From NCBI RefSeq assembly GCF_000013405.1, contig NC_007759.1, forward strand, positions 2,543,001 through 2,607,000: 64,000 bases of DNA, read 5' to 3'. Shown here piece by piece: positions 4-18,520 of the stretch. This stretch comes from Syntrophus aciditrophicus SB. Lineage in GTDB: Bacteria > Desulfobacterota > Syntrophia > Syntrophales > Syntrophaceae. The stretch's first letter is position 1. Each line of letters opens with the position of its first letter. The notes under the pieces are model-generated. The model was not told where the DNA came from. It saw nothing but the letters and a program-made list of their open reading frames with translations, and did no database searches. The position numbers and the translations under genes were made by a program.

Positions 4-1308
4 TTAAAACTTCCTGTTGTCGACCACCCTCTTCGCTTTTCCTTCACTCCTCTCGATGGTCATGGGTTCCACAAGGGTGATCTTCGCGGAAATCCCGATC
101 GTTTTCCGGAAACGATCACTGATCCTGTTCTTGACGGCATCCAGGAACTTGACTTCATCGGAGAACAGCTTTTCGTTAACCTCAACCTTGACCTCGATTT
201 CATCGAGGGCTCCCCGCCGGTCGACGAAGATCTGATAATGAGGTTCCGTACCCTCCACAGACATAAGGACATCCTCGATCTGGGAAGGAAAGACGTTGAC
301 CCCCTTGATGATCAGCATATCATCCGTTCTTCCCATCACCTTTTCCATCTTGACGAAGGTCCTGCCGCAGCGGCATCCGTCATGATACAGTCGGGTGATA
401 TCCCGGGACCGGTAGCGGATATTGGGGAAGGCCTCCTTGGTCAGGGAGGTGTAAACGATCTCCCCCTTCTCGCCTTCAGGCAGAACCTCCCCGGTTTCCG
501 GATCGATGACCTCCACGTAGAAATGATCCTCGTTGACATGGAGTCCGGATTTCTCGGAACATTCGCTGGACACCCCGGGGCCGATGACCTCGGACAGTCC
601 GTAGATGTCATAGGCACTGATCCCCAGCCGGGATTCAATCTCCCTCCTCATCGGTTCAGACCAGGGCTCCGCGCCGAACACCCCAATACGCAGCTTTGTA
701 GACCTGATGTCATAATCGGGCCTTTTTTTCTCGATGTAATCCGCTATACTCAAGGCAAAGGAGGGGGTGCAGCACACTGCTGTCGTGCCGAAATCCTTGA
801 TCAGCATGAGCTGCCTGTCGGTATTTCCCGTGGAGATGGGCACGACCATGGCCCCAAGCCGTTCAGCCCCGTAATGAACGCCGAGCCCCCCTGTGAAAAG
901 ACCATAACCATAGCCGATCTGAATGACATCATTTTCATCGGCCCCGGCCGCCGCCAGACACCTGGCGACAACCTCAGCGAAAACATCGATATCATTCCTT
1001 GTATAACCTACGACCGTCGCGTTTCCCGTTGTACCGGAAGAGGAGTGAACCCGGACGATCTTGCTCAGGGGAACCGCAAAAAGGCCGAAAGGATAGTTTT
1101 CCCTCATCTCCTGCTTCATCTGGAAAGGGATGCGCCGCATATCATCGAACGATTTGATCTGATCCGGATGAAAGCCGGCCGCGTCATATTTCTTCCTGTA
1201 GTATTCACTGTTGTTATAGGCGTGATTGACCGTCCACTTGATCCTTTCGAGTTGAAGTTCTTTCAGCTTCTTCTCGGGCATCAGCTCAAATTCTTTATTG
1301 AAAATCAT
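4..1308 (-). CDS. paaK: Phenylacetate-CoA ligase (AMP-forming)
   Basis: This 434-residue enzyme should activate phenylacetate, or a related aryl acid, with ATP and CoA to the aryl-CoA thioester in the cytoplasm. The ANL-superfamily phosphate-binding loop SSSGTTGNATVVGYT lies near residues 90-104. The adenylate-binding motif YGLSEVIGPGVSSEC follows near 238-252, and the C-terminal lid domain has GRTDDMLIIKGVNVFPSQIE. The length is normal for the PaaK family. The ATG at 1308 is preceded on the minus strand by GAGG at a good distance. The gene stands alone before a similarly oriented hypothetical gene. Anaerobes often carry several paralogs of this family, so the exact aryl acid cannot be read from the sequence; indoleacetate and other aryl acetates are alternatives. 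Confidence 0.9.
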   Translation of the reverse strand: MIFNKEFELMPEKKLKELQLERIKWTVNHAYNNSEYYRKKYDAAGFHPDQIKSFDDMRRIPFQMKQEMRENYPFGLFAVPLSKIVRVHSSSGTTGNATVVGYTRNDIDVFAEVVARCLAAAGADENDVIQIGYGYGLFTGGLGVHYGAERLGAMVVPISTGNTDRQLMLIKDFGTTAVCCTPSFALSIADYIEKKRPDYDIRSTKLRIGVFGAEPWSEPMRREIESRLGISAYDIYGLSEVIGPGVSSECSEKSGLHVNEDHFYVEVIDPETGEVLPEGEKGEIVYTSLTKEAFPNIRYRSRDITRLYHDGCRCGRTFVKMEKVMGRTDDMLIIKGVNVFPSQIEDVLMSVEGTEPHYQIFVDRRGALDEIEVKVEVNEKLFSDEVKFLDAVKNRISDRFRKTIGISAKITLVEPMTIERSEGKAKRVVDNRKF

Positions 1309-2625: not shown

Positions 2626-3993
2626 ATGAGCAAACAGAGAGAAAAGACCGCCCCCCGGGAAAGGGACACCATTCTTGATTCCATCGCGGACGGGGTTTTT
2701 TCCGTGGACGACCGGTGGCGCATCACGTCCTTCAATCGCGCGGCGGAGAAGATTACCGGCGTTTCCCGCGAGGATGCCGTGGGACAGCGCTGCAAGGATG
2801 TACTCAAGGCCGAGATCTGCGACCGCGGCTGCCTTCTGAAGAAAACCATGGAAACGGGAAAACCGGTGGTCAACCGCACGGTCTACATCGTCAATGCCGA
2901 AGGCCGGCGGCTGCCCATCAGCATCTCCACGGCGCTGCTGCGCGACGAAGACGACCGGATTATCGGCGCCGTGGAAACATTTCGGGATCTCAGTCTGGAA
3001 GAGCAGCTTCGAAAGAAGATCGAAGCACGCTATTCCTTCGAGGACATCATCTCCCGGAATCACCGGATGCATGAACTCTTCAGCATTCTTCCGGATATAG
3101 CAAACAGCACCAGCACGGTTCTCATCGAGGGTGAGAGCGGCACGGGAAAGGAACTCGTCGCCAGGGCCATTCACAACCTCAGTACGCGGAAAAGCAGACC
3201 CTTTGTTGCAGTCAATTGCGGCGCCCTGCCGGATACGCTTCTGGAATCGGAACTGTTCGGGTACAAGGCCGGCGCCTTCACGGATGCGCGGAAGGACAAG
3301 CCGGGCCGCTTCAAACTGGCGGAGAAAGGCACCCTTTTCCTCGATGAAATCGGAGACGTCTCGCCGGCCATGCAGGTCCGGCTGCTTCGCGTCCTCCAGG
3401 AAAAGACCTATGAACCCCTGGGATCCGTGGAAAGTGTCCGGCACGATGTCCGGATAATCGCGGCAACAAACAAAAAACTCCCGGACCTGGTCAGGGAAGG
3501 CAAATTCCGGGAGGATCTCTATTACCGGATCAACATCGTCAGGCTGGAACTCCCCCCCCTACGGGAAAGAATGGAGGACATTCCCCTGCTGGTCGATCAC
3601 TTCATCGGACATTTCAACGTTCTTCAGAACAAGGAGATCGCCGGGGTGACCGATGAAGCCCTGGCCTGCCTGATGACCTATACATATCCCGGCAACATCC
3701 GGGAGCTGGAGAACATTATCGAACGTGCCTTCATCCTCTGCAAATCCGGGATGATCGACCGGATCCACCTGCCTGACCCGGTTTGCGGGATCTCCGGCGC
3801 CGCTGAGATCCCGGCGTGGGAATCCATGTCCTTCCGGGATATGGAAGCAATATTTCTGACCAACGTTCTCCGGAGGAACGCCTGGAACAAAAGCCGGACC
3901 GCCCGGGAACTCGGGATTCACAAAAGCACCCTTTTCCGGAAGCTGAAGGCTCTGGGCATTCGCTCACCCGACAAAACTCAGGAAAAATCATGA
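2626..3993 (+). CDS. PAS-domain sigma-54-dependent transcriptional activator (copy 1)
   Basis: This 455-residue enhancer-binding protein should use ATP to open sigma-54 promoters. An N-terminal PAS domain spans about residues 12-125 and carries Cys56, Cys65 and Cys69 in a C-x8-C-x3-C pattern. The AAA+ domain follows with GESGTGKE, the sigma-54 contact loop written GAFTDA instead of the usual GAFTGA, and the Walker B sequence GTLFLDEIGD. A Fis-type helix-turn-helix closes the protein (SRTARELGIHKSTLFRKLKALGI). It closely resembles the activator at 10567 in layout and PAS cysteines. Desulfovibrio ORP operons are controlled by such a cognate activator, so this protein is a plausible regulator of the NifX/MinD operon beginning at 4750. 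The signal sensed is unknown; the cysteines suggest redox or an Fe-S cluster. Confidence 0.93.
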   Translation: MSKQREKTAPRERDTILDSIADGVFSVDDRWRITSFNRAAEKITGVSREDAVGQRCKDVLKAEICDRGCLLKKTMETGKPVVNRTVYIVNAEGRRLPISISTALLRDEDDRIIGAVETFRDLSLEEQLRKKIEARYSFEDIISRNHRMHELFSILPDIANSTSTVLIEGESGTGKELVARAIHNLSTRKSRPFVAVNCGALPDTLLESELFGYKAGAFTDARKDKPGRFKLAEKGTLFLDEIGDVSPAMQVRLLRVLQEKTYEPLGSVESVRHDVRIIAATNKKLPDLVREGKFREDLYYRINIVRLELPPLRERMEDIPLLVDHFIGHFNVLQNKEIAGVTDEALACLMTYTYPGNIRELENIIERAFILCKSGMIDRIHLPDPVCGISGAAEIPAWESMSFRDMEAIFLTNVLRRNAWNKSRTARELGIHKSTLFRKLKALGIRSPDKTQEKS

Positions 3994-4723: not shown

Positions 4724-4749
4724 TATATGGCTGTCAGGGAGTGGAAAAT

Positions 4750-5160
4750 ATGAAATCAGCCATTCCGGTTTGCGGGCAGGACATAGCTCTGGTTTTTGAT
4801 GACGCGGATTGCCTGCTCGTTATCGAGATCGGGGAAAAAGGTGTGTACAGAGAGGAACGGTTGCGCTGTACCGGCAGAACAATGATCGACAGGGCAAACC
4901 AGTTGAGATCTCTTGGCGTAAATCTCCTGATCTGCGGGGCGATTTCGTGCCCGCTGCAGCGAATGATCGAAGCATCGGGAATCGACATCATTCCCTTTGT
5001 GCGGGGAAATGCGGCGGAGGTGTTTGATGCCTGGCTCCGAAAAGGTCTCGCAGATAGGCGTTTTTTTCTGCCTGGGAGGCGTATCCTGCCGAATGGCCGC
5101 TTGTGCAGAGGATTGCAGGCGCGCTGCCGCAACAGAGGGGAAAGGAAAGATCAGAGATGA
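4750..5160 (+). CDS. NifX/ORP-family protein (dinitrogenase Fe-Mo cofactor-binding domain)
   Basis: This roughly 136-residue protein has the ribonuclease-H-like fold of the NifX/NafY/MTH1175 superfamily, whose members carry or protect metal-sulfur cofactors. It shows IPVCGQDIALVFDDADCLLVIEI at the start and LGVNLLICGAISCPLQRMIEASGIDIIPFVRG in the middle, the typical core strand-loop-helix. The C-terminal 30 residues are Arg-rich and unusual. ATG 4750 is preferred over GTG 4741 because AGGGAG sits at the right distance. It is first in an operon with the NifX gene at 5157 (ATGA overlap) and two ferredoxin-MinD ATPases, the arrangement of the Desulfovibrio ORP locus. A role in Mo/Cu- or Fe-S-cluster handling is inferred from the family. 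Confidence 0.8.
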   Translation: MKSAIPVCGQDIALVFDDADCLLVIEIGEKGVYREERLRCTGRTMIDRANQLRSLGVNLLICGAISCPLQRMIEASGIDIIPFVRGNAAEVFDAWLRKGLADRRFFLPGRRILPNGRLCRGLQARCRNRGERKDQR

Positions 5161-5525
5161 AAATAGCGATTACGTCTCAAGGAAAGGAACAGAACAGTCA
5201 ACCGGACATGAGCTTCGGAAGGGCCAAATGGTTCATTATTTATGATGAGGATACAGGCCGCTTGGAAGCAATTGAAAATGCTCAGAATGTTCAGACAGCG
5301 CATGGGGCCGGCATCAATGCCGCGCAAACGGTTGCCGACCTGGGAGCCGGCGTGGTATTGACGGGAAATGTGGGACCCAATGCTTTTCGGACGCTTCAGG
5401 CTGCCGGAATCAGAATCGTGCTCTTCGACAAGAATCGAAAAACCGTGGAGGATGTTCTTCAGGGATGGAAGACCGGCGATTTTTCCGAAGCAACCAAAGC
5501 CACGGTTAAAGGTCATCGGGTTTAA
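5157..5525 (+). CDS. NifX/ORP-family protein (dinitrogenase Fe-Mo cofactor-binding domain)
   Basis: This 122-residue protein is a standard single-domain NifX/MTH1175-type protein. It begins MKIAITSQGKEQNSQPDMSFGRAKWFIIYD and contains GAGINAAQTVADLGAGVVLTGNVGPNAFRTLQAAGIRI, the conserved core. It is the closest relative in the window of the ORP protein of Desulfovibrio, which binds a Mo-Cu-S cluster in vitro; binding here is inference. The chosen ATG overlaps the stop of the previous gene (ATGA), implying translational coupling; an upstream in-frame start would lengthen it with unrelated residues. A decayed copy of its N-terminus lies at about 27965-28024. Confidence 0.9.
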   Translation: MKIAITSQGKEQNSQPDMSFGRAKWFIIYDEDTGRLEAIENAQNVQTAHGAGINAAQTVADLGAGVVLTGNVGPNAFRTLQAAGIRIVLFDKNRKTVEDVLQGWKTGDFSEATKATVKGHRV

Positions 5526-5600: not shown

Positions 5601-6452
5601 TTGAAAATCGCTATAGCAAGTGGAAAAGGGGGAACGGGAAAAACGACGGTGGCAGTCAATTTTGCCCAGGTTCTGGCAGCTGCCGGTCAGGAGGTCACTC
5701 TGCTGGACTGTGATGTGGAAGAACCCAATGTCCACCTTTTTCTTCATCCGGAATTCGATTCTGTTTCGGCTGTAGAAACAACAATCCCTCAAGTGGATGA
5801 GGAAAAGTGCACGGGGTGCAGGGTGTGCGCCGAAGTCTGCGAGTATCACGCTCTGGCCGTTCTCGGGAAGAACGTCCTGGTTTTTCCCGAACTTTGTCAC
5901 GCCTGCGGCGCCTGTGTCCGGTTTTGCCCGGAAGAAGCCATTGTCGAGATACCACGGGAGATCGGCACGATTCGGAAGGGAAGAAAAGGAAAAATCCGCC
6001 TGATCGAAGGCAGGTTGAATGTGGGCGAGGTCATGTCGCCGGCAGTCATCGAGAGGGTCAAAAAAATCGGGCTTGACGGAAAAATCGGGATTATCGACGC
6101 CCCGCCGGGCACTTCCTGCCCCGTCATCGCCGCGGTCAGGGACACGGATGGCGTTCTGCTTGTCACGGAGCCCACGCCTTTCGGCCTTTATGACCTGAAG
6201 CTTGCCGTCGGAATGGTCCGGCTCCTTGGAATACCCTGCGCCGTGGCCATCAATCGTTCCGATCTCGGAGAAAAGGAATTATGGCGTTACTGCTCCGATG
6301 AGCGCATCCCCATTATCCTTGAAATTCCCAATGACCGGCGGATCGCGGAGGCTTATTCGCGCGGCAGAACCATTATCGAGGAACTCCCCGAATATCGGGA
6401 AAAGTTCCTCCAGGGATGGCAGGCCCTGCTGGAAAGTTGCTCTATAGCGTAA
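5601..6452 (+). CDS. MinD/ParA-type ATPase with 2x[4Fe-4S] ferredoxin insert (copy 1)
   Basis: This 283-residue P-loop ATPase belongs to the Mrp/MinD group. The deviant Walker A SGKGGTGKTT lies at residues 7-16. A bacterial ferredoxin domain is inserted after the DCDVEEPN switch, with Cys70/73/76/80 and Cys99/102/105/109. The later DAPPGTSCPV and ITEPT-like segments complete the nucleotide-binding fold. It starts with TTG at 5601, because AAAGGA lies upstream and the P-loop begins at once. Such proteins occur in pairs in ORP loci and form a complex with ORP in Desulfovibrio. They are thought to act in cluster assembly or delivery, not septum placement. It follows two NifX genes in the same operon. 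Confidence 0.92.
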   Translation: MKIAIASGKGGTGKTTVAVNFAQVLAAAGQEVTLLDCDVEEPNVHLFLHPEFDSVSAVETTIPQVDEEKCTGCRVCAEVCEYHALAVLGKNVLVFPELCHACGACVRFCPEEAIVEIPREIGTIRKGRKGKIRLIEGRLNVGEVMSPAVIERVKKIGLDGKIGIIDAPPGTSCPVIAAVRDTDGVLLVTEPTPFGLYDLKLAVGMVRLLGIPCAVAINRSDLGEKELWRYCSDERIPIILEIPNDRRIAEAYSRGRTIIEELPEYREKFLQGWQALLESCSIA

Positions 6453-6492
6453 GAAAGCGTGTTTTGTCTGTTTCAAATTGCTCCTTTCTCGG

Positions 6493-6534
6493 AAACAGCG
6501 CCGGGAGATCCCGTTCGGAACCCGGCGCTGTTTT
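6493..6534 (+). terminator. Strong intercistronic hairpin between the two MinD genes
   Basis: A 13-bp perfect stem (AAACAGCGCCGGG with CCCGGCGCTGTTT) and a 15-nt loop are followed by only a short T run. It may terminate part of the transcripts or protect the upstream mRNA, giving unequal levels of the two ATPases. Confidence 0.65.
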
Positions 6535-6570
6535 ACGCAATGAAGGGATACACGGAGAAGCGGTATCGCA

Positions 6571-7464
6571 ATGAAAGAAATCGTAGTGATCAGCGGAAAA
6601 GGTGGAACGGGGAAAACCAGTATCGTGGCAAGCTTTGCCTTTCTTGCGGAACGGAAGGTGCTGGCCGATTGCGACGTTGACGCGGCGGATCTTCATCTGG
6701 TCCTTGCCCCGACAATTGAATACCAGGAAGATTTCAGCGGAGGAGGAAAGGCGCGGATCGATCCCGAACGCTGTATCGGCTGCGGCCTCTGCATGGGGTT
6801 GTGCCGTTTCGGAGCCATTTCTTCCTCAAAAAACGAGGCGGGCAGAGATGCCGGTGAATTGGAGAAACCCTGTGTCAATCCACTGCTGTGCGAAGGATGC
6901 AAGCTCTGTGTGCGGGCCTGTCCCGAGCAGGCCATCGATTTCGAACCGCACATCGACGGGCGGATGTTTATTTCTTCAACAGATTATGGTCCCATGGTTC
7001 ACGCCGGACTGGGCATCGGACAGGGAAATTCCGGAAAGCTGGTCGCACTTGTCCGCGAAAAGGCTCGCAACGTCGCTCAGGAAAAAGGGCTGGATCTTGT
7101 GATCATCGACGGATCGCCGGGCATCGGCTGTCCGGTGATCGCCTCTATTACGGGAGTGGATCTCGTGCTTGCCGTTACCGAACCGACCGTTTCGGGCAGG
7201 CACGACCTGCTTCGGGTATCGGAATTGACGTCTCACTTTCAGATTCCTCTGCTGGTTTGTGTCAATAAGTGGGATTTGAATCCGGAAGTTGCCGGACAGA
7301 TTGAAGAACTGGCCCTGGAACGGGGCGCGCGACTGGCGGGACGAGTCCGGTATGATCCGGCTGTCACACAGGCCATGGTGGCCCGGAAAAGCATGGCGGA
7401 ATTCTCAAAGGAAGGGGCAGCGGAAGACATCCGGAAATTGTGGCGGACAGTCTCTGAAAATTGA
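6571..7464 (+). CDS. MinD/ParA-type ATPase with 2x[4Fe-4S] ferredoxin insert (copy 2)
   Basis: This 297-residue partner of the preceding ATPase has Walker A SGKGGTGKTS at residues 8-17. The ferredoxin insert has Cys68/71/74/78 and Cys107/110/113/117, with a longer linker between the two clusters than in copy 1. IIDGSPGIGCPVIAS and VTEPTVSGRHDL follow. The two copies are clearly diverged, as in Desulfovibrio, where both members of the pair belong to the ORP complex, so a heterodimer is likely. GGAG lies upstream of the ATG at 6571. It is cytoplasmic with no membrane-targeting helix evident at the C-terminus, which argues against a MinD division role. Confidence 0.92.
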   Translation: MKEIVVISGKGGTGKTSIVASFAFLAERKVLADCDVDAADLHLVLAPTIEYQEDFSGGGKARIDPERCIGCGLCMGLCRFGAISSSKNEAGRDAGELEKPCVNPLLCEGCKLCVRACPEQAIDFEPHIDGRMFISSTDYGPMVHAGLGIGQGNSGKLVALVREKARNVAQEKGLDLVIIDGSPGIGCPVIASITGVDLVLAVTEPTVSGRHDLLRVSELTSHFQIPLLVCVNKWDLNPEVAGQIEELALERGARLAGRVRYDPAVTQAMVARKSMAEFSKEGAAEDIRKLWRTVSEN

Positions 7465-7573: not shown

Positions 7574-8467
7574 ATGGGTTCATGCAGTTCATGTAATTCA
7601 GGAAATTCCCTGGAGGGTGAAGGCTGCTCGATGGCGGGAGGTCAGTCGGATAAAGGGATGGCAAATCTCAGCGAAGATGAAAAGCTGAAAAGAAACATGG
7701 AGCGCATCGCTCACAAGATCCTGGTTCTTTCGGGAAAGGGCGGGGTCGGGAAAAGCACCGTCGCCGTCAATCTGGCGATTGCTCTGGCCCTCGAAGGAAT
7801 GCGGGTGGGCCTTCTGGATGTGGATTTTCACGGTCCCAGCGTTCCCACGCTCCTTCATCTTGAGGGGAGAAGGCCGGAGGTCACCGAAAACGGGATGCTT
7901 CCCATCACAATCGAAGGCGGTATGAAGGTCATGTCTCTGGGATTTCTGCTGCAGCGTCCGGATGACGCGGTGATATGGCGCGGGCCGTTGAAAATCGGCG
8001 CGATCAAGCAGCTCCTTGGGGATGTGGAATGGGGCGATCTGGACTACCTGGTCATCGATTTCCCTCCCGGCACGGGAGACGAACCGCTCACCGTGGCCCA
8101 GACGATCCCGGAAGCGGACGGCGCCGTCGTGGTAACCACCCCCCAGGATGTCTCGACGATCGACGTCAGCAAATCCGTCACATTCTGCCGTCAGCTGAAC
8201 ATCCCCGTTCTGGGCGTTGTTGAGAACATGAGCGGTCTGGTCTGTCCGCACTGTTCAAAAGTGATCGACCTGTTCAAACAGGGAGGCGGCGAGGCCATGG
8301 CCAAGCGGATGGATGTTCCCTTCCTGGGACGGATACCCCTGGATCCTGAAATTGTGGAAGCCTCGGACGCGGGACGTCCCTTTATCTATCACCATCAGAA
8401 CACAGAGGCCGCCGCCGCGTTCCGCCGGATCGTCGAATCGCTGCTGAAGCTCCGGAAATCAGCATAA
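7574..8467 (+). CDS. mrp: Mrp/NBP35-type Fe-S cluster carrier ATPase (copy A)
   Basis: This 297-residue ATPase should bind a bridging [4Fe-4S] cluster and pass it to apo-proteins. The N-terminus has Cys4, Cys7 and Cys18 in MGSCSSCNSG...GEGCSM, like NBP35. The Walker A motif SGKGGVGKST lies at about 53-62, and WGDLDYLVIDFPPGTGDEP forms the switch. The C-terminal CPHC motif (about residues 222-225) supplies the bridging cysteines. AGGAG precedes the ATG. It sits in the ORP-like operon between the MinD pair and the arginine decarboxylase. A nearly identical paralog occurs at 31578 with a matching ribosome-binding region. Confidence 0.93.
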   Translation: MGSCSSCNSGNSLEGEGCSMAGGQSDKGMANLSEDEKLKRNMERIAHKILVLSGKGGVGKSTVAVNLAIALALEGMRVGLLDVDFHGPSVPTLLHLEGRRPEVTENGMLPITIEGGMKVMSLGFLLQRPDDAVIWRGPLKIGAIKQLLGDVEWGDLDYLVIDFPPGTGDEPLTVAQTIPEADGAVVVTTPQDVSTIDVSKSVTFCRQLNIPVLGVVENMSGLVCPHCSKVIDLFKQGGGEAMAKRMDVPFLGRIPLDPEIVEASDAGRPFIYHHQNTEAAAAFRRIVESLLKLRKSA

Positions 8468-8482
8468 GGAGCAGAGGGTAAA

Positions 8483-9028
8483 ATGTTTTTACCGAATAAA
8501 ATTTTCTTCACAAAGGGCGTCGGAACTCATCGCGCGGAACTGCATTCCTTTGAGCTGGCCCTGCGGGACGCGGGAATAGAAAAATGCAACCTCGTACAGG
8601 TATCCAGCATCATGCCGCCGGGATGCCGGGTGATTTCACGTACTGAAGGCCTGCGCCTGCTGAAACCCGGTTCGATTACCTATTGCGTCATGAGCCGCTG
8701 TGCCAGCAATGAACCCAGGCGGCTGCTGGCAGCCTCGGTCGGCTGCGCCATCCCGGCGGATAAAACCACCTATGGCTATATCAGTGAACATCATGCCTTC
8801 GGACAGACTGAAAAGCAGGCTGGAGATTACGCGGAAGATCTCGCAGCTGCCATGCTGGCTTCGACGTTGGGCATCGATTTCAATGTTGATGAAAGTTGGG
8901 ATGAAAAAAAGGAAATTTTCAAGATCAGTGAAAAAATCGTGGGCACAAGAAACGTCACCCAGTCCAGCATCGTGAAAGGTACGGATTACACAACCGTACT
9001 GGCGGCAGCGGTCTTCGTTTTTTCCTGA
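8483..9028 (+). CDS. pdaD: Pyruvoyl-dependent arginine decarboxylase
   Basis: This 181-residue protein matches the PvlArgDC family, which decarboxylates arginine to agmatine using a pyruvoyl group made by self-cleavage. The cleavage site is recognisable as VSSIMPPGC, with Ser41-Ser42 as the expected scissile pair. Other family features are [21 protein letters not shown] near the start and the distal [23 protein letters not shown] segment. The length is typical for the single proenzyme. It begins 15 bp after the Mrp gene with AGGAG upstream, so it is almost certainly cotranscribed with the cluster-assembly genes. Agmatine could serve polyamine synthesis or acid response; why it sits in this locus is unknown. 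Confidence 0.88.
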
Positions 9029-9084
9029 AATTTCAGGGAAGCGATCCGCTGCGGCCCGCGTGCGGCATATAGGAAAAATGCAAC

Positions 9085-9801
9085 ATGGGATTGGAAATGA
9101 CGATCACTGGCCTGCTGATAATGGCTTCGGTAATGATGGCACTGGCCCTTGCCTGGTTCGGACTTCACTACCTGCTGAATCCGCGTATGGAGAACCCGGA
9201 CGGCATCGCGAAAGTGACCGGCTCCTGTGGAGACACCATGGAGATCGCCCTGAAATTCAACGGACCCAGGGTGGAAGATGTTCATTGCTGGACCGACGGC
9301 TGCGCAATAAGCAAGATGTGCGTGGAAACGGTGGGAATGCTTGCCCGCGGCAAGACCGTACCGGAACTCAGAACCATCGATACGGCATCAATCCTGGAGC
9401 GGGTGGGACAATTGCCGGAGACGCACATGCATTGCGCCGTTCTGGCGGAAACAACCCTGCAGAAGGCTGTTTCCTTTTATACGCTCAAAAATCCGGATGT
9501 CGACCCTTTGAGACCATCATTCCGTGAGGCACCCCCTCGGCATGACGGCCAAAACAGCCGGGATGACGCAGCCTTGGAGGAACAAACCACTTACGTCGTT
9601 TACCTTTTTCCTTCTGTCAGCTACGTCATGAAGGCGGAAAAAATCCTCAAGGAGAGGGAAATCGTCCACAAGGTGATCCCCGTCCCCCGCCATATCAGTT
9701 CCGACTGCGGCGTGTGTCTCCGGATTCCGGCGGATCAGCAGGAGAGAGTCACCGAAGCCCTGCGGGGAAAGGTTGCCTGGGAGAATACGGCCGAAATGTA
9801 A
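9085..9801 (+). CDS. Membrane-anchored IscU-like scaffold fused to a DUF3343 domain
   Basis: This 238-residue fusion begins with one hydrophobic anchor (about residues 6-28). An IscU/NifU-N domain follows and keeps all three cluster ligands and the aspartate: Cys48, Asp50, Cys73 and Cys117, the last in MHCAVLAE. After a linker rich in charged residues comes a DUF3343 domain (about 168-235) with the characteristic KVIPVPRHISSDCGVCLRI, including Cys208 and Cys211. DUF3343 proteins are suspected sulfur or selenium carriers. The combination suggests assembly of a cluster at the membrane with its sulfur source in the same chain; this is inference. It lies between the arginine decarboxylase and a NifU-like gene. 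Confidence 0.85.
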   Translation: MGLEMTITGLLIMASVMMALALAWFGLHYLLNPRMENPDGIAKVTGSCGDTMEIALKFNGPRVEDVHCWTDGCAISKMCVETVGMLARGKTVPELRTIDTASILERVGQLPETHMHCAVLAETTLQKAVSFYTLKNPDVDPLRPSFREAPPRHDGQNSRDDAALEEQTTYVVYLFPSVSYVMKAEKILKEREIVHKVIPVPRHISSDCGVCLRIPADQQERVTEALRGKVAWENTAEM

Positions 9802-9875
9802 ACAGGGCAAGGGGATAAACGCATCGACCAGAGAGAAGACAAGAATCGGAAAGGCATAGATAAATAAATAGAACC

Positions 9876-10565
9876 ATGTGGGATTATACGGATAAGGTCA
9901 GGGAGCATTTCTGGAATCCCCGCAACGTGGGGGAAGTTGAAAATCCTGACGGTATTGGTCAGGTCGGTTCCCTTGCCTGTGGCGACGCGCTCCGCCTTAC
10001 ATTCAAACTGGATGAAAACAAAAGGATCAAAGAAGCGAAATTCAAGAGTTTCGGCTGTGCCAGCGCTATTGCCGCGGCGTCGGTCCTGACGGAAATGGTC
10101 GTGGGCCTTACGATCGAACAGGCGGAAAAAATCACGAATCAGGACATTGCCGCCGCCCTTGGAGGACTGCCTGAACAAAAGATGCACTGTTCCGTTCTCG
10201 GGGAACAGGTTCTTGAAAAAGCGATTGCCTGTTATCGAGGGCGCCCGGCAGGCGCAAAAGAAGAAAAGATGATCTGTGAATGTTTCAGCGTAACGGATCG
10301 GGAAATCGAGAAAGCCGTCAGGGAGAACCGTCTTACTTCGGTGGAACAGGTAACCAACTACACGAAAGTGGGAGGCGGCTGTGGAAACTGCCACGGGAGG
10401 ATTCAGGAGATTCTTGACTGGGAGCGAACCGAATTCCGCAAGTCCGTCCGCCCGAAATTAATCGATATCCGGACAATCAGCAGAATACAGGATAAACCAG
10501 AAACCGGAAACTGGGAGAAATCAGGGAATCAATTCCCGAGCGGACAGGACAAAATCAACCCCTGA
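9876..10565 (+). CDS. NifU-like Fe-S scaffold (IscU domain plus BFD [2Fe-2S] domain)
   Basis: This 229-residue protein has an IscU-type scaffold domain with Cys35, Asp37, Cys61 and Cys105 (KMHCSVLGE). A Bfd/NifU central [2Fe-2S] domain follows with Cys134, Cys136, Cys169 and Cys172 (MICECFSV...GGGCGNC). The C-terminal Nfu domain of full NifU is missing; the last 45 residues are unrelated and polar. It should build transient clusters for transfer, perhaps to the ORP-complex ATPases. No cysteine desulfurase (NifS/IscS) gene occurs in the window, so sulfur must come from elsewhere or from the adjacent DUF3343 fusion. The stop lies one base before the next gene's ATG. Confidence 0.9.
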   Translation: MWDYTDKVREHFWNPRNVGEVENPDGIGQVGSLACGDALRLTFKLDENKRIKEAKFKSFGCASAIAAASVLTEMVVGLTIEQAEKITNQDIAAALGGLPEQKMHCSVLGEQVLEKAIACYRGRPAGAKEEKMICECFSVTDREIEKAVRENRLTSVEQVTNYTKVGGGCGNCHGRIQEILDWERTEFRKSVRPKLIDIRTISRIQDKPETGNWEKSGNQFPSGQDKINP

Positions 10566-10566
10566 G

Positions 10567-11934
10567 ATGAGTAAAGATATTGAAGATCAGACGCAGATCA
10601 TTCTTGACAGCATTGCAGATGGCGTTTTTACCGTTGATTCTGAATGGAAAATCACATCTTTCAACCGCGCAGCGGAGAAGATAACCGGCATAGCCAGGGA
10701 AGAGGCCATAGGGAAGCAATGCCGGGAGGTTTTCAGGGCCGGCATCTGTGAAAACCATTGCTTTCTAAGGCACACCGTCGAGAGCGGACAGCCCGTCGTC
10801 AACCAATCCATATTTATCCTGAATGCGAGGGGAGAGCGCATCCCCGTAAGCATCTCCACGGCCCTCCTTAAAAACAGGGAAAAACAGGTGATCGGCGGGG
10901 TCGAGACATTCAGGGATCTCAGTCTGGTGGAAGATCTGCGCAAGGAACTGTACAACCGCCGCTCCTTTCATGACATCATCAGCAAAAACAAAGAGATGCA
11001 TCGTCTTTTCCATATTGTGGAGCAATTGTCCGAAAGCGATGCCACCGTCATTCTTGTCGGCGAAAGCGGCACAGGAAAGGAACTGTTTGCAAAGGCCATT
11101 CATTACGAGAGTTCAAGAAGGGATGGCCCCATCATAACAATCAACTGCGGCGCTCTGCCGGACAATCTCCTTGAGTCAGAGCTTTTCGGCTATAAAGCAG
11201 GAGCCTTTACAGACGCCAAAAGGGATAAGCCCGGACGTATAACCCTGGCTCATGGCGGAACGCTTTTTCTCGATGAGATCGGTGATATCTCCCAGGCCAT
11301 GCAGGTCAGACTCCTGCGCGTCCTCCAGGAGAAGGTTTTTGAACCTCTTGGAGGGACGAAATCGGAAAAAGTCGACGTCCGGATCATTGCGGCAACCAAT
11401 AAGGATCTGGAGAAGCTTGTAAAAGAAGGGATTTTTCGTGAAGATTTCTACTACAGAATCAATGTGGTCAAACTTCTTCTTCCTCCCTTGAGGGATCGTA
11501 AAGAGGATATTCCTCTCTTATCGGAACACTTCATCCGAAAATTAAACCGGCGCAAGGGGACGGACATTCTGGGACTCCAACCCGAGGCCCTGGCAATCCT
11601 TATGGCATATGACTATCCCGGCAATATCCGGGAACTGGAAAATATGATCGAATACGCGATGGTCGTCTGTAAAAACAGTCTCATCGGCATCGAGCATCTC
11701 CCCGATTACCTGATCCAGAGTTTAGACCATGGCAGTCAAAAATCATTTCTCCCGAAACAAAAGCAGATTTCATTGAAGGGTCATGAAAGAGAATTCCTTT
11801 ATAACGCACTGGCCGAAAACAATTGGAACAGAAAACGCACCGCAGCCCAATTGGGCATACATCCCACGACCCTCTGGCGAAAGCTCAGGAGACTGAATAT
11901 TGAGCTTCCAGAACAGGATGGACGCCATAAGTAA
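10567..11934 (+). CDS. PAS-domain sigma-54-dependent transcriptional activator (copy 2)
   Basis: This 455-residue activator has the same layout as the protein at 2626. A PAS domain carries Cys52, Cys61 and Cys65 in the identical C-x8-C-x3-C pattern. The AAA+ domain has GESGTGKE, GAFTDA in place of GAFTGA, and GTLFLDEIGDI. A Fis-type helix-turn-helix ends the protein (KRTAAQLGIHPTTLWRKLRRLNI). The recognition helices differ between the two copies, so they may bind different sites. It is the last gene of the 4.7-11.9 kb run and immediately precedes the dyads and -24/-12 element of the 12390 unit. By analogy with the Desulfovibrio ORP locus, it is probably the cognate regulator of the cluster. 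Confidence 0.93.
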   Translation: MSKDIEDQTQIILDSIADGVFTVDSEWKITSFNRAAEKITGIAREEAIGKQCREVFRAGICENHCFLRHTVESGQPVVNQSIFILNARGERIPVSISTALLKNREKQVIGGVETFRDLSLVEDLRKELYNRRSFHDIISKNKEMHRLFHIVEQLSESDATVILVGESGTGKELFAKAIHYESSRRDGPIITINCGALPDNLLESELFGYKAGAFTDAKRDKPGRITLAHGGTLFLDEIGDISQAMQVRLLRVLQEKVFEPLGGTKSEKVDVRIIAATNKDLEKLVKEGIFREDFYYRINVVKLLLPPLRDRKEDIPLLSEHFIRKLNRRKGTDILGLQPEALAILMAYDYPGNIRELENMIEYAMVVCKNSLIGIEHLPDYLIQSLDHGSQKSFLPKQKQISLKGHEREFLYNALAENNWNRKRTAAQLGIHPTTLWRKLRRLNIELPEQDGRHK

Positions 11935-12389: not shown

Positions 12390-12770
12390 ATGAAGGATGG
12401 AAGAATAGCTGTTCCGTCAATGGAAACCGGCGGTCTGGATGGTCACAGGTCAGGCCATTTTGGTCATTGTGATGTCTTTACCCTGGTGGATGTCAAGGAT
12501 GGCGAAATTGAAAACGTAACGACGATTGCAAACCAGAGCCATGTTCAGGGAGGCTGCATGGTCCCGGTCAATCTGCTGGCCCAGCATAATGTCAACGCGC
12601 TGGTTGTCGGCGGCATCGGGTTGAGGCCTCTGATGGGTTTCCGGCAGGTCGGAATCGATGTGTATTATGACGTGACACGGCCGGAGATCAGACCTGTTGT
12701 TGAAGACCTTATCGCGGGAAGACTTCCCCAGATCGAGGATGACCAGGTCTGCGGCGGTGGCGGACGCTGA
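12390..12770 (+). CDS. NifX/ORP-family protein
   Basis: This 126-residue NifX/MTH1175-type protein begins MKDGRIAVPSMETGGLDGHRSGHFGHCDVFTLVDV. It contains VQGGCMVPVNLLAQHNVNALVVGGIGLRPLMGFRQVGIDVYYD, a variant of the conserved GAG...GGxGxxA core. The tail is CGGGGR. His/Cys residues in HFGHCD and GGCMV could bind a metal cofactor. It is preceded by GAGGAGG and by its own sigma-54 promoter and dyads. It is followed 14 bp later by another NifX gene, so the two form a transcription unit ending at the terminator at 13182-13240. The function is inferred as metal-sulfur cofactor binding. Confidence 0.88.
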   Translation: MKDGRIAVPSMETGGLDGHRSGHFGHCDVFTLVDVKDGEIENVTTIANQSHVQGGCMVPVNLLAQHNVNALVVGGIGLRPLMGFRQVGIDVYYDVTRPEIRPVVEDLIAGRLPQIEDDQVCGGGGR

Positions 12771-12784
12771 TCGAAGGGAGACGG

Positions 12785-13147
12785 ATGATGAAAATTGCCG
12801 TGACATCCCAGGGCAGGGAACTAGATTCACCGGTTGACCCTCGCTTCGGCAGGGCCGCCTATATTCTTATCGTGGATTCGGACACCTGGAGTTTCGATGT
12901 TCTTGACAACAAGGCGAATGTCAATTCGCTTAAAGGGGCGGGAATCCAGGCCGCGGCCAACATACACAGCAAAGGCGCGGAGGTTCTGCTTACCGGTTTT
13001 TGCGGTCCAAATGCCTTTAAGACCTTGACGGCCGGCGGGATAAAAGTAGCCAATGACGCCTCCGGCACTATCAGAGAAGCGGTTAGATCGTTCCTTGACG
13101 GGAAGCTGACTTTCGCGGATCAGGCCAATGTAGAAGGAAATTGGTAA
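12785..13147 (+). CDS. NifX/ORP-family protein
   Basis: This 120-residue protein begins MMKIAVTSQGRELDSPVDPRFGRAAYILIVD and keeps the core GAGIQAAANIHSKGAEVLLTGFCGPNAFKTLTAGGIKV. It is a canonical stand-alone member of the NifX/MTH1175 superfamily and the nearest sister of the gene at 5157, sharing the MKIA-TSQG start and the G-CGPNAF-TL turn. ATG 12788 is an equally good start (the two methionines are adjacent). It is cotranscribed with the gene at 12390. It probably carries or senses a metal-sulfur cluster; no direct evidence for the metal is visible. Confidence 0.9.
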   Translation: MMKIAVTSQGRELDSPVDPRFGRAAYILIVDSDTWSFDVLDNKANVNSLKGAGIQAAANIHSKGAEVLLTGFCGPNAFKTLTAGGIKVANDASGTIREAVRSFLDGKLTFADQANVEGNW

Positions 13148-14574: not shown

Positions 14575-14672
14575 ATTCAAGATCACGCCCGACGGCGGCA
14601 TACATAAAAAGGGCGCCGTCCATTTCCTTCAAGTTTTTAACCACTCTTGCTTTTCCTGTATTGAGGTTTCCA

Positions 14673-15425
14673 ATGATGGAATTAGATGAGAAAATTTACC
14701 GGTTTTTTGAAAATCGAGGCAGGGACGTCACCGTTGAATACTTGAATCTGGGTCTCGGTTATACGGCTGTGACCACCTCGGACGGGGGCATTGGAATCGC
14801 CTATACCTGTTTCGGCGCGAAGGAAAGCTGCAGTTTTATGAACAGCTATTATGATTTCGAGGGCAGACCCGCAGTGGAGCTTCTGGAAAAGATCAAAAGC
14901 ACTCACCCTCTCGAAAGGACCATGGCTCTCGCGCTTGTCAATGCCCTCAACTATGAATATGCCCTTTCCCTGCCGGAAGATAAGGAAAACAGGGCTCTTT
15001 TTGAAAGTTTCGGCATCGGAGAAAAAACACGCGTAGCCATGGTCGGATATTTTGCTCCCATAGCCGGAATGCTTGGAAAAATGGGGGCTCTTCTGGAGGT
15101 CATCGATATTTCCAAAAAAATCGGACACCAGGCTGATTTTTATGACAGGCTGGAAAACTGGGCTCAGGTGGCGTTTATAACCTCCACTTCGATTCTGAAT
15201 TCAACGACGGAAGATATCCTTCGGCATGCAGGCAAGGGGGTGAAAACCGTCATGCTCGGTCCCAGCACGCCCATGATCGGGGAAGTCTTTTCGCACCTTC
15301 CCGTGCACATGCTGGCCGGCACGGTACCCCTTGAAAAGGAAAAAGTGCTCAAAGCCATCCGCCATGGTTTTGGAACAAGGGAAATCCAGAGGTTCAGTCG
15401 AAAATCCTATCTTGCACTGTTTTGA
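14673..15425 (+). CDS. DUF364/DUF4213-type putative heavy-metal-chelating protein
   Basis: This 250-residue protein resembles the DUF364/DUF4213 family, which has an enolase-like N-terminal part and a Rossmann-like C-terminal part and is suspected of chelating metals. Seen here are an N-terminal domain with YTAVTTSDGGIGIAYTCFG and a later RVAMVGYFAPIAGML strand-loop. TSTSILNSTTEDIL and VMLGPSTPMIGEVF follow. ATG 14673 is chosen because GAGG lies six bases upstream; ATG 14676 follows at once. Family members often neighbour Mo, W or Fe-S cofactor genes, consistent with this locus. No enzyme reaction can be named. Confidence 0.75.
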   Translation: MMELDEKIYRFFENRGRDVTVEYLNLGLGYTAVTTSDGGIGIAYTCFGAKESCSFMNSYYDFEGRPAVELLEKIKSTHPLERTMALALVNALNYEYALSLPEDKENRALFESFGIGEKTRVAMVGYFAPIAGMLGKMGALLEVIDISKKIGHQADFYDRLENWAQVAFITSTSILNSTTEDILRHAGKGVKTVMLGPSTPMIGEVFSHLPVHMLAGTVPLEKEKVLKAIRHGFGTREIQRFSRKSYLALF

Positions 15426-16272: not shown

Positions 16273-17258
16273 TGAGTGAAAAGGGTTTTCGCTATGTTTA
16301 CGGTCCTGTTCCATCGCGGCGCCTTGGCCGTTCACTGGGTGTCGATCTCGTTCCCTTCAAGGTCTGCACCTTTGACTGCGTTTACTGCCAACTGGGCCGG
16401 ACCACGATCAAGACGGTGGAGAGGAAGGAATACGTTTCCGCCGCGGATGTTCTGGACGAAGTGAAACGCAAGCTGGCTGAGGAAGATAATCCGAATTACA
16501 TCACCTTCGCGGGCTCCGGGGAACCGACGTTGAACAGCCGGATCGGAAACCTGATTCTACGGATCAAGGATCTGACGGATATCCAGGTGGCCGTCCTGAC
16601 CAACGGCTCACTCCTGTGGACGAAGGAGGTTCAGGATGACCTGATGGCAGCCGATCTGGTCATCCCCTCCCTGGATGCCGGTGATGAACAACTGTTCCGG
16701 TATGTTAACCGCCCCCATGAGAACATTTCCTTTGACCGGCTGGTTGACGGTCTGGTCGATTTTACGCGGCGTTTTCCCGGACAGGTGTGGCTTGAAATCC
16801 TGCTGCTCGAGGGCGTCACGAGCATGCCCTCTCATGTAAAAAAAATTGCTGACCTTGTGGCGCGCATCGCGCCGGCCTGCGTTCAACTGAATACCGTCTG
16901 CCGTCCACCCGCTGAGGAATTCGCCTTTCCCGTTTCGCAGGACATTCTGCTGTCTTTGAGGGAGTTCTTTCCCTGTCCGGTGGATGTAATCAGTGAGGAA
17001 AGTCAGGAACATTCAGAAATATCCGCTTTTTCTGAAAGCAGGGAAGAAGATGTCCTGGCTCTGCTTCGCAGACGCCCCTGCACTTCCGAAGATGTTGCCG
17101 AAGGTCTTGGCATCCATATAGCGGAAGCCCTTAAACGTCTCAACGCTCTGATAGCCATCGGAACGGTGCGCTCCACCATCTCCGGAGGACGAAATTTCTA
17201 TACCGCAACGGGGGGAAAATCGCCTTCCGGGGCGCCGGGAAACAAACAGGACAAATGA
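16272..17258 (+). CDS. Radical SAM protein with C-terminal winged-helix domain
   Basis: This roughly 328-residue protein has the radical-SAM cluster motif CTFDCVYC (Cys32, Cys36 and Cys39), preceded by YGPVPSRRLGRSLGVDLVPFKV, a signature of a widespread uncharacterised group. The GEPTLN motif and later barrel strands are present. The C-terminus (about residue 256 on) looks like a winged helix (LLRRRPCTSEDVAEGLGIHIAEALKRLNALIAIGTVRST), unusual for an enzyme and suggesting nucleic-acid or partner binding. The ATG at 16272 overlaps the previous stop. Its own stop overlaps the following transporter start. The reaction is unknown. Confidence 0.88.
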   Translation: MSEKGFRYVYGPVPSRRLGRSLGVDLVPFKVCTFDCVYCQLGRTTIKTVERKEYVSAADVLDEVKRKLAEEDNPNYITFAGSGEPTLNSRIGNLILRIKDLTDIQVAVLTNGSLLWTKEVQDDLMAADLVIPSLDAGDEQLFRYVNRPHENISFDRLVDGLVDFTRRFPGQVWLEILLLEGVTSMPSHVKKIADLVARIAPACVQLNTVCRPPAEEFAFPVSQDILLSLREFFPCPVDVISEESQEHSEISAFSESREEDVLALLRRRPCTSEDVAEGLGIHIAEALKRLNALIAIGTVRSTISGGRNFYTATGGKSPSGAPGNKQDK

Positions 17259-18520
17259 AAACGCTCGGGGTCGGCAGCGAAAATCAATCTGCACACCGGC
17301 CGGAAAAACGCCTCGACCAGGAAGCGGAATTGATCGGCAAGGTCGCCCTTTACGCCTTCCTTTTGAATCTCGGTCTCGCGGCCATGAAAGGCGTTCTTGC
17401 ATTCTGGTCCGACAGCCTTGCCGTCACCGCAGGCGCCATCGATTCCGCAACCGATTCCGCAGCGTCACTCGTCCTCTATGGGGGCCTTAAGCTTTCGACG
17501 AGAAAAACGCCTTCCTTTCCAGAAGGGCTTTACAAAATCGAAAATGTTCTATCCGTCTTTGTCGCACTGTCGATCTTTTTCGCCGGCCTTGAGATCGCGC
17601 TGAAGTTATTCAAACAGAGCGTTTCATCACCACGGATTTCCCTGGATATTGTTGTCCTGCTTCTGGTCAGTGTGGCGGCAACTTTCCTGTTCGGCCGGTA
17701 TGCGATCCTGACCGGGAGGAAAACGGAATCGCCCACCCTGATCGCGGAAGGTCGGCATCGTCAGGTGGATGTCCTGTCTTCCAGCGTCGTGTTGATATCC
17801 GTCCTTCCGGAGTATTTCGGATACCACGTTTCCCTGTTCGGTCTTTCAATCGATTCGATCGCTGCATGTGCGGTCCTGATCTTCATTGCCTTCGCCGGAT
17901 GGGAATTGCTTTCGAACGGGATGCGGGTGCTGCTGGATGCCTCTCTCGATTTCGAAACCCTGGACGAGGCGAGAAGCATCCTGAAAAACCATCCCATGGT
18001 GGTAAATATCCGATCACTTTCAGGTCGTAACGCAGGCCGTTTCCGCTTTCTTGAAGCCAGTGTCATCCTGCGGACGGGCGATCTCAAAAAAGCCCACCGG
18101 ATCAGCGAAGATCTGGAGCAAAGCATCAGGGAAAAGATTCCCCATGTGGAACGCATTATGATTCATTATGAACCCCAATCTCATTCCCACATCCGCTTTG
18201 CTGTCCCCCTGTCTGATCCCGCTGGTGTCATCAGTCGACATTTCGGTGAATCTCCTTTCTTTGCCATCCTGACGTTCCGCCCTGCGGATCGTTCCATCGT
18301 GCAGCAGGATATTATTGAAAATCCGCACAAAGAAATTGAAACGGCTAAAGGCATTCGTGTGGCGGAATGGCTCGTTGAGCAGAAAATCGATCAGATTTTT
18401 ATGACCGAGGATCTTTCCCACAAAGGCCCCTCTTATGTATTCAGCAATGCCGGGGTAAACGTGCAAAGGACCGATGCGGTACATCTTGAAGAGATTCTTG
18501 AAAACCTCAAGACCTGGTAA
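17255..18520 (+). CDS. FieF-type cation efflux protein fused to a C-terminal NifX domain
   Basis: This 421-residue fusion joins a cation diffusion facilitator with a NifX-type domain. The transporter part (about residues 25-300) has the metal-site pairs Asp63/Asp67 (DSATD) and His168/Asp172 (HRQVD), the combination found in FieF/YiiP, and a cytoplasmic domain with IMIHYEPQ. From about residue 310 the sequence IRFAVPLSDPAGVISRHFGESPFFAILTF...GIRVAEWLVEQKIDQIFMTEDL is a NifX/MTH1175 domain. Such an add-on could gate Fe2+ or Zn2+ export by cofactor status; this is inference. The ATG overlaps the previous stop (ATGA), so it is cotranscribed with the radical SAM gene. Confidence 0.9.
   Translation: MKTLGVGSENQSAHRPEKRLDQEAELIGKVALYAFLLNLGLAAMKGVLAFWSDSLAVTAGAIDSATDSAASLVLYGGLKLSTRKTPSFPEGLYKIENVLSVFVALSIFFAGLEIALKLFKQSVSSPRISLDIVVLLLVSVAATFLFGRYAILTGRKTESPTLIAEGRHRQVDVLSSSVVLISVLPEYFGYHVSLFGLSIDSIAACAVLIFIAFAGWELLSNGMRVLLDASLDFETLDEARSILKNHPMVVNIRSLSGRNAGRFRFLEASVILRTGDLKKAHRISEDLEQSIREKIPHVERIMIHYEPQSHSHIRFAVPLSDPAGVISRHFGESPFFAILTFRPADRSIVQQDIIENPHKEIETAKGIRVAEWLVEQKIDQIFMTEDLSHKGPSYVFSNAGVNVQRTDAVHLEEILENLKTW

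Follow-up and report, generated by a model that had tools for sequence, protein, structure and literature searches.

The window analysed here is a stretch of 64,000 nucleotides from Syntrophus aciditrophicus SB (NC_007759.1, positions 2,543,001 to 2,607,000), whose genome is a single contig of 3,179,300 bases. The open reading frame at 9085-9801 (+) reads through without a stop and encodes a protein of 238 residues that joins an IscU-like domain to a DUF3343 domain. It lies in a group of genes that run one way and comprise the following features (positions are those of the window):

2626-3993, a sigma-54 activator similar to the PAS-containing one at 10567..11934
4741-5160, an ORP-like Nitro_FeMo-Co protein (Pfam)
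5103..5525 (+), an ORP-like Nitro_FeMo-Co protein (Pfam)
5601..6452 (+), a MinD/ParA-type ATPase with 4Fe-4S ferredoxin motifs, Orp3/Orp4-like
6571..7464 (+), a second MinD/ParA-type ATPase with 4Fe-4S ferredoxin motifs, Orp3/Orp4-like
7574..8467 (+), an Mrp/NBP35-type P-loop ATPase that lacks the C-terminal ORP domain (best NCBIfam match, MrpORP)
8483..9028 (+), a protein of the pyruvoyl-dependent arginine decarboxylase (PvlArgDC) family, directly upstream of the fusion
9085..9801 (+), the fusion: membrane helix, IscU-like domain, linker and DUF3343 domain
9097..9177 (+), its N-terminal membrane helix, residues 5-31 (hydropathy, model, orthologues)
9184..9495 (+), its IscU/NifU_N-like domain, residues 34-137, with C48, D50, C73, H116, C117 and an extra conserved C79
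9496..9585 (+), its unconserved linker of about 30 residues, residues 138-167 (orthologue identity, dN about equal to dS, pLDDT <50)
9586..9780 (+), its DUF3343 / Se_S_carrier domain, residues 168-232, with C208 and C211 (Pfam, model)
9876..10565 (+), a NifU_N protein with a BFD-like [2Fe-2S] domain and no C-terminal Nfu domain, a canonical scaffold adjoining the fusion
10567..11934 (+), a sigma-54 activator with a PAS domain
12390-12770 and 12785-13147, two further ORP-like Nitro_FeMo-Co proteins (Pfam)

The first-pass annotation of this DNA had described a full IscU active site (Cys48, Asp50, Cys73 and Cys117), a membrane helix and a DUF3343 domain with Cys208 and Cys211, and each of these elements was recovered. 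The Pfam NifU_N profile (PF01592) matches residues 46-136 (E 3.8e-17, 63 bits vs a cut-off of 22). In an alignment with a sequence that we take to be that of E. coli IscU, the ligands correspond as C48 to C37, D50 to D39, C73 to C63, H116 to H105 and C117 to C106, so that H116, which the annotation had not named, completes the set. Residues 172-228 match Se_S_carrier/DUF3343 (PF11823; E 7e-19, 67.5 bits vs a cut-off of 25), and C208 and C211 lie within the motif SSDCGVCLR. The NifU_N match starts at profile position 32, the membrane helix replacing the N-terminal segment of IscU. A structure model, built from a three-sequence alignment and of moderate quality (mean pLDDT 72, pTM 0.49; domain contacts are not readable from it), has one long N-terminal helix (residues 2-31), an IscU fold, a linker with pLDDT <50 and a separate beta-alpha-beta-beta-alpha-beta domain. 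Its top PDB matches in Foldseek are IscU chains, headed by 4eb5, an IscS-IscU complex (E 1.6e-9).

The hydrophobic segment covers approximately residues 5-31, and its best 19-residue window (7-25) has a Kyte-Doolittle mean of 2.17. Translation possibly starts at the ATG at 9097 and not at 9085, as two orthologues begin at the equivalent methionine. A cleaved signal peptide was considered and is disfavored: the window copy has an AxA motif at residues 21-23, but the other fusions conserve none there. Because this motif is unconserved and none of the four fusions has a basic n-region, we tentatively prefer to read the helix as an uncleaved membrane anchor. The charges flanking the helix fix no topology in a charge-bias check, and the IscU domain presumably lies on the cytoplasmic side of the membrane.

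The fusion is present in all four genomes of the genus Syntrophus, with 65-69% identity and one uninterrupted frame in each, and every IscU ligand position (C48, D50, C73, H116 and C117) is kept in the four orthologues. For the IscU domain, pairwise dN/dS values, calculated by the Nei-Gojobori method with our own script and including some dS values near saturation, were about 0.05-0.08, and for DUF3343 they were 0.11-0.28. The linker gave a ratio of about 1, with dN close to dS, and its identity between orthologues was 3-27%. Both domains are thus under purifying selection with a linker that drifts freely between them, as would be expected of a genuine protein of two domains. The annotation had named a frameshift or stop hidden at the border of the domains as a refuting condition; this is ruled out, the same frame being open in the three further Syntrophus genomes, with selection acting on either side of the linker. 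An unconserved linker might by itself suggest a sequencing error or a functionless chance fusion in decay; the frame shared by four genomes and the purifying selection that flanks the linker refute this, and we consider it practically inconceivable.

The combination of IscU and DUF3343 was found in the four Syntrophus genomes only, among the genomes searched. With the whole protein as query and at the E cut-offs used, those four were the only carriers among 155 genomes of the order, and the window's own genome was the only one among 395 genomes across the phylum. A DUF3343 search of 148 genomes of the phylum, in which 34 long ORFs were read, gave no further IscU fusion. One of these ORFs (L089) matched an IscU profile, and it was discarded, since the match falls on its DUF3343 part and the profile contained fusion rows. 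Short exact peptide patterns, which detect close relatives only, returned one Syntrophus record and one TM-only relative across 84,980 species, and a plasmid search gave partial matches only. The fusion is, from these sequence searches, a new architecture of the IscU family, limited to one genus as far as searched. No publication on a membrane-anchored IscU turned up in the open-access literature, of which our coverage was incomplete.

The protein scores below the NCBIfam equivalog cut-offs of IscU (43 vs 192.4 bits), NifU_clost (62.4 vs 187.9), NifU_proper (35.5 vs 273.3) and SufU (37.5 vs 92.5), so by its sequence it belongs to the IscU/NifU_N family and is none of these four types. It shares with the IscU / NifU N-terminal scaffold (PF01592) the fold and all cluster-ligand positions, and differs in having a helix as its N-terminal segment, a cysteine at +6 from C63 (E. 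coli numbering) and an attached DUF3343 domain. In a tree of 33 IscU-like domains, it falls in a clade (support 98/95) separate from canonical NifU/IscU, and the extra cysteine, at +6 from C73 (C79 in the fusion), is found in 14 of the 15 clade members and in none of the 18 other sequences. All proteins with an N-terminal membrane helix group with the fusions inside this side clade (95/91), and therefore the helix was probably gained once; DUF3343 was added later, in Syntrophus. The closest relative is a TM-IscU of 145 residues from a Desulfobulbaceae genome (L042; 50% identity, 100/97). Soluble IscU-like proteins of other Desulfobacterota (L082-L085, L154) resemble the fusion in clade and gene neighbours and differ in having neither membrane helix nor DUF3343; that they share the clade and the extra cysteine rests on L082-L084, the rows placed in the tree. 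We also observed that in one Syntrophus genome (L045:5045-5470) the gene immediately after the fusion encodes a soluble IscU-like protein from a different clade, at the position held by the NifU-BFD gene in the other Syntrophus genomes.

The gene surroundings match the parts list of the orange-protein complex of Desulfovibrio (PMC6345978). As in the D. vulgaris ORP system with MrpORP, an Mrp/NBP35 ATPase, two ferredoxin-MinD ATPases, Nitro_FeMo-Co proteins and sigma-54 activators occur together, here around the fusion. Unlike that system, the Syntrophus cluster has IscU-type scaffolds, PvlArgDC and DUF3343, its Mrp and ORP domains are on separate proteins and its operons are not divergent. The ORP domain being absent from the 7574-8467 product, this protein scores 402 bits against the MrpORP equivalog, under the cut-off of 450. 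All four Syntrophus genomes keep the order PvlArgDC-fusion, which lies in orp-type clusters whose gene set is retained, partly rearranged, in the other Syntrophus genomes. Consensus matches to sigma-54 promoters were fewer than expected by chance (12 vs 26) and none was convincing.

The soluble members of the side clade also appear to sit mostly in orp clusters. In other Desulfobacterota, genes of soluble IscU-like relatives lie between Mrp and MinD-type ATPases in three loci (L083-L085), beside Nitro_FeMo-Co genes in two (L082, L154) and beside Mrp, partly also PvlArgDC, in four (L049, L050, L055, L060). None of the seven TM-only relatives is in an orp cluster, and thus membrane tethering is not orp-linked in general. 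The orp-type cluster, the extra-cysteine clade and the separate gain of the membrane helix are all absent from the first-pass annotation, whose case the gene context strengthens.

Some further observations concern the same neighbourhood. A PvlArgDC gene lies at 5 kb or less from an IscU-like gene in 15 of the 53 genomes of the order that have PvlArgDC (a hand tally; about one would be expected by chance, by estimate). The PvlArgDC copy of the window is 95-97% identical across Syntrophus, above most of its neighbours. The gene at 17255-18520 encodes a cation-efflux transporter with a Nitro_FeMo-Co domain at its C-terminus, and a DUF364 heavy-metal chelation protein is encoded nearby (14661-15425).

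DUF3343 was proposed by Lin et al. to be a selenium or sulfur trafficking chaperone, from similar gene neighbourhoods, and it is also found in organisms without SelD; it is thus a proposed carrier, with neither proven chemistry nor recorded desulfurase activity (PMC5322559). It is usually a free protein of 75-100 residues, whereas in the fusion it forms the C-terminal part of a membrane protein, with a score above the cut-off and the conserved cysteines. Conservation of these cysteines had been named as a check on the annotation: all four fusions and 17 stand-alone DUF3343 proteins from the order have both C208 and C211, two more divergent proteins retain the first cysteine only, and no aligned DUF3343 sequence lacks C208. 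The four fused domains cluster together (93/86), nested among stand-alone proteins (97/96) whose genes adjoin YedF and SclA-like desulfurases or double-cubane reductases, the nearest copies being those beside YedF and an SclA-like desulfurase. In the order, stand-alone DUF3343 genes lie directly beside YedF and an SclA-like cysteine desulfurase or near double-cubane reductases (L056-L062, L047, L122).

Other DUF3343 proteins came to light in the same searches. Stand-alone copies in L047, L057, L058, L122 and L124 adjoin genes like those of double-cubane-cluster reductases and their activases, an assignment that NCBIfam confirmed for L058 and that was judged by eye from sequence for the other four, and this hints at a role in sulfur supply for double-cubane clusters. 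Next to the DUF3343 gene of L047, a protein of 975 residues (7908-10832) has radical SAM, ArsM-like methyltransferase and MbdU-like regions. Proteins of 180-209 residues that join DUF3343 to a C-terminal domain with the motifs GGGCPDVPY and GHTLCGYAL are widespread in the phylum (L088-L121), account for most of the 34 long DUF3343 ORFs and have just the first cysteine of the DUF3343 pair.

The annotation's statement that there is no cysteine desulfurase gene nearby holds for the window, the nearest strong Aminotran_5 gene lying about 44 kb upstream. Three cysteine desulfurases are encoded elsewhere in the genome, in a NifU-NifS pair at 1.09 Mb, as a NifS adjoining FdhD at 2.51 Mb and as an SclA-like desulfurase adjoining YedF at 2.80 Mb. 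About 4 kb separate the NifU-NifS pair from a selD gene with one in-frame TGA (L086, G000:C1:1086624-1087553), whose product is probably a selenoprotein. The annotation had further proposed that DUF3343 may supply sulfur or selenium, which would make the protein a self-contained scaffold. Carriage would be a fair guess, given a lineage beside YedF and the SclA-like desulfurase; as a supplier, a proposed carrier would itself need a donor. Self-contained is thus too strong a term, because DUF3343 is at best a carrier and no donor is encoded in the window.

The IscU ligand set argues for the building of Fe-S clusters from iron and persulfide sulfur. We tentatively favor, with a little less than even confidence, that the fusion serves orp-linked Fe-S maturation as a scaffold tethered to the membrane, its persulfide relay being tethered too and supplied by a desulfurase acting in trans. 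In such a scheme, the SclA-like/YedF pair or a NifS would load a persulfide on C208 of DUF3343, and the disordered linker of about 30 residues would give this domain the freedom to reach the IscU site; there C48, D50, C73, H116 and C117 would assemble a [2Fe-2S] or [4Fe-4S] cluster. A dN/dS ratio of about 1 between constrained domains is as expected of a tether. The cluster might then pass at the membrane to the Mrp/NBP35 ATPase (7574-8467) and from it to the ferredoxin-MinD ATPases (5601-7464). The Mrp/NBP35 ATPase is the likely receiver because the Desulfovibrio MrpORP passes the cluster that it carries on to Orp3/Orp4 and is located at a cell pole (PMC6345978). The upstream source of the MrpORP cluster is stated as unknown in the same work (PMC6345978), and with the polar location a membrane-held scaffold from the same gene cluster would therefore fit. 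We infer this cluster building and sulfur transfer, with its direction and its partners, from the observed architecture, conservation, selective constraint, origin, clade and gene context of the fusion. The adjoining canonical NifU-BFD protein (9876..10565) could itself be the scaffold.

Other roles of the two domains have to be weighed against this relay. DUF3343 might be a docking module for a desulfurase or a redox switch working through C208/C211, in either case without carrying sulfur itself, the IscU domain still being a scaffold. Its chemistry is unproven (PMC5322559) and in the model its fold is similar to regulatory domains of the PII/CutA/ACT type (VIA Z up to 7.9), though this fold is common and its matches (PII, UreE and others), all with Z <8, single out no function. 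As C208 occurs in every aligned DUF3343 sequence, as expected of a carrier residue, and stand-alone copies adjoin sulfur/selenium-transfer genes, we regard docking or redox sensing as unlikely. Quite unlikely is that the IscU-like domain builds or delivers a Mo/Cu/Fe sulfide cluster for the ORP-like Nitro_FeMo-Co proteins instead of serving general Fe-S assembly. The S2MoS2CuS2MoS2 cluster of the Desulfovibrio Orp8 (PMC6345978), the four Nitro_FeMo-Co proteins of the gene cluster and the conserved C79 of the clade, absent from canonical IscU, point that way, but the ligands are precisely those of an Fe-S scaffold, and the soluble relatives are nearest to Mrp and ferredoxin ATPases.

The fusion might also handle selenium, DUF3343 taking selenide or perselenide from an SclA-like enzyme and the scaffold storing, channeling or scavenging selenium at the membrane. 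This agrees with the selenium traffic predicted for DUF3343 from gene neighbourhood and with the selD of the genome, which contains an in-frame TGA, and its YedF and SclA-like enzyme. However, DUF3343 occurs also without SelD (PMC5322559), and the domain to which it is fused and most of the genes close by belong with Fe-S or metal cofactors and not with selenium, which leaves a selenium function decidedly improbable.

Beyond the membrane-tethered persulfide relay that we favor, it is conceivable, although rather doubtful, that Desulfobacterota have an Fe-S assembly line dedicated to orp, with its own IscU-type clade, which in Syntrophus would be membrane-tethered and loaded by its own sulfur (or selenium) carrier domain rather than by a desulfurase that docks to it directly. 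By tying a proposed selenium/sulfur carrier physically to an Fe-S scaffold, the fusion serves as a 'Rosetta stone' for the widespread DUF3343 family, which has no known function, and it puts the question of sulfur or selenium on one polypeptide. It also points to a clade of scaffolds with links to orp clusters. The maturation factors of the ORP complex were described as unknown in the 2019 MrpORP paper, which left open whether MrpORP depends on ISC or SUF (PMC6345978), and an IscU-type scaffold encoded in orp clusters would be a concrete candidate for such a factor.
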